64,000 nt of DNA, from NCBI RefSeq assembly GCF_014764505.1, contig NZ_JACXWX010000001.1, forward strand, positions 682,001-746,000, written 5' to 3'. The DNA is from Phormidium tenue FACHB-886. GTDB taxonomy: Bacteria; Cyanobacteriota; Cyanobacteriia; Elainellales; Elainellaceae. Below are positions 31,410-33,961 of this stretch, one piece after another (the stretch's first letter is position 1; every line of letters starts with the position of its first letter). Both the position numbers and the translations under genes were made by a program. The notes beneath the pieces are model-generated. The model was not told the origin of the DNA, did not search any database, and saw only the letters and a list, made by a program, of their open reading frames with translations.

Positions 31410-33845
31410 TTACCATCCGGATTCCGTATTAGTCCTTGGCACAGCACAAACAACTCGAAAACCGACATTGTTGCACTTCTTGTTGCGCTCTTCACTGTTG
31501 CGATTGGCAGACCGACAAAATCTCGGACTACTGAACCAGGAACCGCCGCGTAGCACTCGCAAACTGCTAACTCCATCCATCCAAGCACTACCATCAGTGG
31601 GTGCATCTTCATAACTGTCATGCCAGCGATCGGCGCACCATTCCCTAACATTTCCATGCATGTCATATAGCCCAAAATCGTTGGGTGGGAAATTGCCGAC
31701 CGCAATTGTTTGTTCTCGATTCTGTCCCTTCACCTCTTCTGCGTAAATATTTTCACCGTCGTAGTTTGCTAGGTCAGTAGACAGCGTTGCACCCACATGA
31801 AAGGGTGTGGTTGTTCCGGCCCGGCAGGCATATTCCCATTCGGCTTCGCTGGGCAGTCGATACTCTTTACCAGTTTTGTGAGAGAGACGGGCGCAAAACT
31901 CGATCGCATCGTTCCAGGAGACATTTTCAACGGGGTGATTGTCTTCCTCGAATTTGGAAGGATTAGGGTTGAGTTCTCGATCGACTTCGGACAGCGAGGC
32001 GATCGCTCTCCACTGAGCTTGTGTCACCTCAAACTTCCCCATTGCAAAAGATGACACCGTTACCTGATGTTGTGGTAGCTCATCGTCACTTTGCCCTTGC
32101 TCCTCTTCTGCAGCACCCATTTGAAAAGCTCCACCTGGAATTTCTACCATTTCCAGCCTGATACCATTGCCTAACTCTTCTACAAAGCCTTTTGACTGAA
32201 CAGGACGGCGCTCAATGATTTCTCCTTTTTCATTGACTGTTACAGATGAGGATTGCCGCTGTTGAAGTAATCCTCCTGTAACTGCAATGCCAGTTCCCAT
32301 AGCACCAAGCGCTGCTAGACTGGCTGTGCGTATGACACGACGACGCGACCAGTTAGAGAACATGGGGTGGCGATCGGTTGCTGCTTGCTGCCTTACCTGT
32401 TCTAGTTGTTCCTCTGCTGCTCTGCGCTGGCGATCGGCTTCTTGCCGCAGTTTTGCCTGATGTTCTTGTTCTGCTTTGCGATCGGCTGCTTGTTGAGCAG
32501 CTTCTTCCTTGCTGCGTTGTTCCTCTGCTTGCTCTAGTCGCTGTCTCTCCTCTTGTTCTTTGCGCTGGCGGTCGGCTTGTCGTTGCCGCACTCTTGCCTG
32601 ATGCTCTGCCTCCAATCGGTCCAAAATTGGCTGTTCAATCGCCTCTACCTCGGCATCGCTCAAGCCGAGGCTCTGCTGAAAGTTCTTTAGCGCAATGCGG
32701 ACAGGCGGAGCGCTCGGATAAGCGGCTTGAGTTGCCCGAATTAGTTCTTGTCGATATTGATGCCGCTTCTCTTCCGCTTGCTGACTCTGTTTTGCTTGCC
32801 GTGCCGCTTCGGCTGCTGCAAAAATGGGCTGAGAGATTTCTGTAACTTCGGCATCTGTGAGATTTCGTCGTGCTTGAAATTTCCTTAGTTCCGCTTCGAT
32901 CGCCTCGTTAAATGGATAGAATCCGCCCTGAATAAGGGCATTCAACCGTTGTACATAGGCTTGCTTAGCTTGCAGAATTGGGGCTTGTTCTTCTATCAAA
33001 ATTCCCTCGGTTTCTGCAATGGTCAGCCCTAGCTCGTCCCGAAGCTGATCGAGCAAGACCTTTTCATAATCCTCTAATCTCCGATCGGCTAAATACTCTT
33101 TGACCTGTTCCCGATACTCTTTGAGGCTAGCATCTTCTTCCTCCAGCGCTTTGTCTACTTCAACCTGAATGGCAACCCGTGTTTGGGCTGGTATCGCACT
33201 GACATCGTTGCCTAGAGTCGGCTTCTTCTTGAGAATCGGCTTCAGGTGTTCGGGAATGGTAATTGTCTTCACCGCCTCTACCACTTCTGCCTTGCGCTGC
33301 TCCTCAGAAGCAGTCGATCGCATCACCTTCGAGCTGCCAGAGATCTCTAGCTGAATCGCATTGCAGCCGAACTCATAAGATTGCTCGATCGAACACTCAT
33401 AGCCTAAGGCACGGTAAAAGCCTTTAGAGAAAGCAATCGCTGCATCATCGCGGATCGTCTGCCGCATGCCAATGACGTAATCGATATGAGTGACGATCGC
33501 ATCTGCCTGTTCTTCTGAATAGCAGGCGTTTAGCAATACACACTTAACGCCGGCAAACAACCGAAATAGATCAGATAAAGCCTCTGCCCTGACCCATTGT
33601 TCGCCTCCCTCATTGCCCTCAAACACCAATCCCTTTGCACCACTACCATGTCCACAAAAATGGACAATTTGGGGTTGATGCTTGAACAAGAAATCTTGCA
33701 GATCGCCCACCCGCACTGCCAGTTCATCAACTACCTCTAGCTGTTGCCGATTGTGCGATCGCTCGATCACAGCTTTGAGATCTCGAACTTCGCGATCGAG
33801 GTGGAGGTCTTTGCGGGGATTGGAGGCGAGAATCAGGATCTTCAT
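31410..33845 (-). CDS. CHAT-protease / FGE-sulfatase-domain fusion protein
   Basis: An 811-residue multidomain protein. Residues 1-175 are a CHAT (caspase-HetF-associated) peptidase domain with MKILILASNP, catalytic His66 in VHFCGHG and Cys108 in VLLNACYS, so it looks active. Residues about 240-410 hold three related helical repeats with an L(S/T)DAEV.EI.QPI signature (the first diverged). Residues 415-490 are a Q/R/E-rich coiled coil. A hydrophobic stretch (about 508-527, TASLAALGAMGTGIAVTGGL) may span the membrane. Residues 555-800 are an FGE-sulfatase/C-type-lectin-like domain (VEIPGGAFQMG, YRLPSEAEWEYACRAG, GLYDMHGNVREWC, LRGGSWFSSPRFCRSANRN, NNVGFRVV). Domain combinations like this occur in bacterial conflict or programmed-death systems. 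The ATG at 33845 is preferred to the TTG just before it. Confidence 0.9.
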   Translation of the reverse strand: MKILILASNPRKDLHLDREVRDLKAVIERSHNRQQLEVVDELAVRVGDLQDFLFKHQPQIVHFCGHGSGAKGLVFEGNEGGEQWVRAEALSDLFRLFAGVKCVLLNACYSEEQADAIVTHIDYVIGMRQTIRDDAAIAFSKGFYRALGYECSIEQSYEFGCNAIQLEISGSSKVMRSTASEEQRKAEVVEAVKTITIPEHLKPILKKKPTLGNDVSAIPAQTRVAIQVEVDKALEEEDASLKEYREQVKEYLADRRLEDYEKVLLDQLRDELGLTIAETEGILIEEQAPILQAKQAYVQRLNALIQGGFYPFNEAIEAELRKFQARRNLTDAEVTEISQPIFAAAEAARQAKQSQQAEEKRHQYRQELIRATQAAYPSAPPVRIALKNFQQSLGLSDAEVEAIEQPILDRLEAEHQARVRQRQADRQRKEQEERQRLEQAEEQRSKEEAAQQAADRKAEQEHQAKLRQEADRQRRAAEEQLEQVRQQAATDRHPMFSNWSRRRVIRTASLAALGAMGTGIAVTGGLLQQRQSSSVTVNEKGEIIERRPVQSKGFVEELGNGIRLEMVEIPGGAFQMGAAEEEQGQSDDELPQHQVTVSSFAMGKFEVTQAQWRAIASLSEVDRELNPNPSKFEEDNHPVENVSWNDAIEFCARLSHKTGKEYRLPSEAEWEYACRAGTTTPFHVGATLSTDLANYDGENIYAEEVKGQNREQTIAVGNFPPNDFGLYDMHGNVREWCADRWHDSYEDAPTDGSAWMDGVSSLRVLRGGSWFSSPRFCRSANRNSEERNKKCNNVGFRVVCAVPRTNTESGW
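31455..31556 (-). other. Candidate DGR-type variable region in the FGE-sulfatase domain
   Basis: Covers residues about 764-797 of the CHAT/FGE protein (from VLRGGSW to VGFR). The order of fixed and variable positions matches targets of diversity-generating retroelements: fixed GGSW, PR, CRSANRN and VGFRVV, with variable positions between them. Variable codons TTC, AGT, AGT, TTT, AGT, TGC can each come from AAC or AAT by adenine changes only. No reverse transcriptase or template repeat is present in the window, so this remains a candidate. Confidence 0.4.
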
Positions 33846-33961
33846 CAAGGCGCAGGAAGCTTCTAGGCTGCATCTGACTCTAGAATACTGACAAATTCTT
33901 GATTTTCATCAGGTTCTCGCTGCCAGAAATACGACTACTCAAACGATTAGAGATCGAGCCA

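Follow-up and report, generated by a model that had tools for sequence, protein, structure and literature searches.

Does the reverse-strand gene at 31410..33845 encode a protease whose sensor domain is rewritten by a diversity-generating retroelement (DGR), and if so, does that rewriting still take place? The window, meaning the whole 64,000-nucleotide stretch analysed, holds an open reading frame (31410-33848, -) that begins with TTG followed by ATG. The TTG at 33848 lies one codon upstream of the ATG at 33845, which gives a protein of 811 amino acids and the His66/Cys108 numbering used here. The product combines a CHAT domain, helical repeats, a coiled coil, a possible transmembrane segment and an FGE domain. 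The CHAT domain, three helical repeats and FGE carboxyl terminus had been called correctly in an earlier sequence-only reading, and each is borne out by Pfam, PADLOC or the AlphaFold2 model.

The caspase-like CHAT domain (33330..33845, -) is recognised by Pfam PF12770 (E 1.8e-6, 28.1 bits, above the Pfam cut-off of 24) and by the PADLOC 'chat' model (E 7.5e-17). The AlphaFold2 model, with a mean pLDDT of 76, gives an alpha/beta CHAT fold followed by three similar units of a short and a long helix. The best PDB match of the CHAT model is SAVED-CHAT 8tl0 (E 1.6e-11), in which the CHAT protease fold is activated by a sensor in the same protein; that sensor is SAVED, whereas the one of the window protein is of lectin type. 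The presumed catalytic residues, His66 of the HFCGHG motif (33648..33650, -) and Cys108 of the NACYSE motif (33522..33524, -), are present as had been claimed and are invariant among five aligned sequences, the window protein and four homologues from its own and related genomes.

The three related helical repeats (32532..33188, -) emerge from alignment and structure model and match no Pfam family above cut-off. They are followed by a charged, coiled-coil-like linker read from the sequence (32350..32530, -, approximate boundaries) and by a twin-arginine-like motif, SRRRVI, preceding a hydrophobic segment predicted by a simple hydropathy scan (32265..32348, -). This segment, which lies before the FGE domain, is a possible internal Tat signal-anchor and suggests Tat export of a folded sensor. 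The Tat-like motif and hydrophobic segment occur also in the template-less homologues L043, L046, L072, L073, L077, L078 and L082, and in 0 of 33 active targets, a count that ignores kinship among genes. The FGE-sulfatase or C-type-lectin-like domain (31449..32153, -; Pfam PF03781, 8.9e-62) has PvdO 5hha as best PDB sequence match (1.9e-47), followed by the DGR protein TvpA 2y3c (5.1e-28). Its structure model (pLDDT 67) matches the same folds and is poor over much of the variable region (VR). TvpA of Treponema denticola is a DGR variable protein with the same FGE-type C-lectin fold, but it carries no protease domain and lies within a DGR system.

The carboxyl end of the window protein, GGSWFSSPRFCRSANRNSEERNKKCNNVGFRV, aligns without gaps to true DGR variable regions of relatives, whose DGR loci comprise a reverse transcriptase (RT; motifs LPIGNLTSQ and YVDDF), FGE targets and a template. 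The putative fossil variable region spans 96 nt (31452..31547, -) in register with the VRs and template repeats (TRs) of these DGRs. Among the relatives, 16 templates have the form GGSWNNNPRNCRSA.RN.N....NNN.GFRV (GGSW-NNN-P.N-CRSA.R-N.N...-NNN.GFRV), and ten of their codons read AAY in 70% or more of the set (n=16). Because the 32 codons of the window segment share length and register with these 16 template repeats, and because its codons TTC, AGT, AGT, TTT and TGC fall at the template-AAY positions 5, 6, 7, 10 and 25, the likeness goes beyond chance resemblance. The constant motifs and codons reported beforehand for 31455-31556 are indeed found there. On the 3' side of the VR, at an offset typical of active VRs, stands an IMH-like CCAAGGACT (31431..31439, -), identified as IMH by sequence motif only; it lies at offset 12, with AGGACT at 15. 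Downstream of most active VRs comes an IMH-like AGGACT or something close to it; the templates have AGCACT or AGTACT and a conserved tail in its place.

The DGR link is best seen in the relatives, where VRs differ from their templates mostly by 0-1 non-adenine and 10-20 adenine mismatches. In G013 the in-locus target is a caspase-like FGE protein (0 non-adenine, 19 adenine mismatches). G011, of the same family as the window genome, has a CHAT-repeat-FGE gene whose product is 58% identical to that of the window gene where CHAT domain and repeats are aligned, and an in-cis template lies about 260 bases downstream. Its VR and TR differ at 12/26 adenines and 0/70 other positions (p 1.5e-8). CHAT-FGE proteins of this kind are therefore true DGR targets, and the proposed link to a DGR holds by descent; present-day diversification, the other half of that proposal, is not supported. 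The closest CHAT relative, G015 (68%), has both RT and CHAT-FGE frame broken in its draft, and its VR differs from its template at 17/30 adenines and 9/66 other positions (p 3e-5). On its contigs C263 and C454 (L202, L203) the RT is split over several frames and the CHAT-FGE homologue is frameshifted, and an intact-looking template and a spacer RNA are present. This DGR is apparently in decay; draft sequencing errors are another possibility.

Rewriting from AAY templates leaves a mark on third codon bases. Active VRs carry C or T at 327/330 AAY-template sites and, where codon choice is free, at 108/109 (z 10.6). Sixteen template-less targets of RT-less genomes do so at 142/160 sites and, at the free-choice sites, at 61/71, where the codon usage of these genes would predict 39 (z 5.6); at group level, this bias is the footprint of AAY templates. 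In the window gene, 8/10 DGR sites end in C or T versus 46% gene-wide, a weak signal (P ~0.03) computed without amino-acid correction. With the amino acids held fixed, the footprint of this gene alone is not significant (2/2 versus 1.5 expected). Comparison of its VR with that of a CHAT-FGE paralogue on contig C112 and with the G011 template revealed no adenine bias (p 1.0 and 0.47, respectively). Since the gene shows neither a significant footprint of its own nor an adenine bias, the case for descent of its VR from a rewritten one is built on homology, on register and on the IMH-like motif. The window gene itself may once have been rewritten, or its ancestors only. An FGE tree places it among active, template-less and RT-less targets, adjoining a homologue from Leptolyngbya whose own locus lacks a template; the C112 paralogue clusters with the G011 gene.

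A retroelement acting in trans had been proposed, and the genome lends no support to such action today. The assembly is a 255-contig draft, 99.9% complete, from which a DGR locus could conceivably have dropped out. Profile A1, built from twelve relatives' RTs with the LPIGNLTSQ and YVDDF motifs, finds no DGR-type RT in it at E<=10, and the same profile scores E<1e-190 in 11/60 relatives. Seven RVT_1 matches exist in the genome; they were rejected as DGR RTs on sequence inspection, six looking like group II maturases or fragments thereof and one like a retron-type RT. No repeat matching the segment except at adenines was found either: an adenine-tolerant pattern of the 102-base window VR with 3 mismatches allowed retrieves only the VR itself from the assembly, and the equivalent template pattern of the paralogue (3 mismatches allowed) only the paralogue. 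A search of the genome for template-like (TR pseudo-) peptides gives FGE genes only. BLAST of the VR against the genome returns the C112 paralogue (69%), a single FGE match of 34 bases on C176 and otherwise noise, and no template. C112 was rejected as a present-day template for the window VR, as 25/76 non-adenine positions differ and adenine bias is absent. The gene on C176 (L010/L026, G000:C176) is a third FGE gene of this genome, 336 amino acids long with a VR-like end, GGSFDYYEDNCRSAHR...; no spacer RNA was found with it.

The conserved tail after the templates is a structured RNA of 34 pairs, 21 of them with two-sided changes (model R1). In the window genome, R1 has one credible match, C112:325818-325967 (E 3.9e-24), directly after the CHAT-FGE paralogue, which ends in a 149-nt structured DGR spacer RNA; no template is present. 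A second match, on C85 (E 0.008), lies inside NB-ARC/WD40 coding sequence and was taken as chance. Rfam gives no family above gathering score for this RNA, RT-14 being a sub-threshold hit (E 0.006). The spacer RNA of BPP-1, which recruits the RT-Avd complex (PMC12875486), occupies the same position, and the cyanobacterial RNA is presumably its equivalent. In the C112 copy 7/34 pairs are broken, the most among 32 copies, half of which helped to build R1, so that the comparison favours those. The VR of C112 lies 19 bases from the RNA, which is the template-to-RNA spacing of G011. Because the spacing is of template type and the template is gone, the junction looks like the scar of a recombination between the VR and the downstream template. 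Similar VR-RNA fusions are found in G002, G005, G007 (RNA truncated), G018 and G027; none of these genomes has a DGR RT match. In G002, a single-contig genome with no RVT_1 or DGR-RT match, the VR of an FGE gene (C1, L205:5527-5786) still has the template sequence without any mutation (GGSWNNNPRNCRSANRNRNLPDNRNNNNGFRV) and passes directly into the spacer RNA.

We privilege the hypothesis that the window gene is a former DGR target, now a fixed, membrane-anchored receptor-type CHAT protease in a lineage that has lost its RT (probability about 0.77). The binding face of the FGE/C-lectin sensor would descend from a DGR variable region. With the DGR reverse transcriptase lost, and templates either lost or fused into a target, the sensor would therefore no longer hypermutate and would evolve as ordinary coding sequence. 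Most likely the protein is an anchored protease that senses a ligand through its lectin-like domain and responds to binding through its CHAT domain, in line with proposals for DGR-lectin conflict proteins (PMC10907252, PMC7517822). A bound ligand would switch on the CHAT protease, probably by way of an assembly that the helical repeats form, and the output could be defence or regulated cell death. Its activity as a protease, its topology, its ligand and its output are all putative.

An unlikely alternative is that the gene never was a DGR target: it would encode an FGE-domain sensor of the ordinary kind, with loops that owe their variation to normal divergence and selection, the DGR targets being a derived side branch. 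The FGE domain is widespread without DGRs, asparagine, serine, phenylalanine and cysteine are among the amino acids encoded by NNY codons anyway, and the window gene alone has, as described above, no significant synonymous footprint or adenine bias. However, this leaves aside a VR of the same length and register as true VRs with an IMH-like motif at the right offset, the spacer-RNA relic on the C112 paralogue, the active-looking template of G011 beside a gene of the same architecture, and the significant third-base footprint of the template-less targets as a group.

We also give a low probability, slightly lower than to the preceding alternative, to an active remote target as supposed in the earlier reading, whose RT and template would be missing from the draft or lie on an unassembled element and would still rewrite the VR. 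Remote variable proteins are documented in cyanobacteria (PMC7517822), and the assemblies of G011, G017 and G025 harbour fresh VR/TR pairs with 0 non-adenine and 12-13 adenine mismatches; since they do so without a DGR-type RT, such an enzyme can escape detection, come from another source or have vanished only a short time ago. Against continued rewriting stand the lack of any adenine-tolerant template with at most 3 non-adenine mismatches in the assembly, a sole spacer RNA that is a decayed copy fused to the C112 paralogue, and VR codons 19 and 23 (GAA, AAG), which are not NNY. The fresh pairs, on G011:C447, G017:C37 and G025:C73 (L194, L195, L197), are accompanied by spacer RNA. No DGR-type RT was found in these three assemblies, and that of G025 is without any RVT_1 match. 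The RT of these genomes may have disappeared not long ago, lie in an assembly gap or act in trans.

An enzymatic role of the FGE domain, in formylglycine generation or another reaction, with the CHAT fusion serving as a modification factor, agrees with the Pfam name and with the fold matches to FGE enzymes and PvdO but is highly improbable, as a reading by eye of the GGSW..CRSA segment against what is known of FGE showed no counterpart of its catalytic cysteine pair, and DGR variation in the relatives falls exactly at this segment, as expected of a binding face.

The former-target reading has precedents. In cyanobacterial DGR variable proteins, amino-terminal domains include orthocaspase-like and, less commonly, CHAT-like ones, and paralogues without a nearby RT exist, such as all3226 of Nostoc PCC 7120, which keeps remnant TR-VR homology (PMC7517822, Vallota-Eastman et al. 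2020). The window gene resembles these variable proteins in its FGE/C-lectin carboxyl terminus and 3'-terminal VR-like segment. Unlike the genomes of that survey, which hold DGR components, its genome yielded no DGR RT or template and keeps a spacer-RNA relic on a paralogue. Thiohalocapsa PB-PSB1 (PMC10907252) offers a further likeness, with a DGR target of CHAT-TIR type and with lectin sensors of FGE type in putative conflict systems. Its loci are diversified in natural populations, whereas no active element was found in the window genome, and inspection by eye of the neighbours of the window gene recognised no ternary-system gene. Published work thus already covers DGR targets of the CHAT- and orthocaspase-lectin kinds as well as remnants without an RT. 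What is added here is a case of the putative frozen state, a spacer-RNA model that can serve to mark fossils and a VR-RNA fusion that recurs; a short literature search found no prior report of such fusions or of a cyanobacterial spacer RNA.

The former-target reading also indicates what a bacterial hypermutation system leaves behind on being lost: a receptor-type protease that is now fixed, a remnant of a motif like the homing site and a spacer RNA in fossil form. R1 provides a sequence handle on genomes that once held a DGR and would escape surveys based on RTs, and with it the decay or domestication of DGRs can be tested across the cyanobacteria. More tentatively, and with the odds against it, DGRs of this family could decay or be domesticated by VR x TR recombination that happens repeatedly; each such event would remove the template, join the spacer RNA to the frozen receptor gene and so fix a chosen sensor. 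RT-less template-target-RNA cassettes would then be non-autonomous satellites using an RT in trans or by transfer. If this route is true, the window genome would represent a late stage of it.

Elsewhere in the same genome, on contig C68 (G000:C68), a retron-type RT lies just downstream of a CHAT-TPR gene (L004:1312-2460 and L004:2-1057). Its best PADLOC match is RT-Protease_XI (1.3e-144), and the pair is possibly a retron with a CHAT effector.
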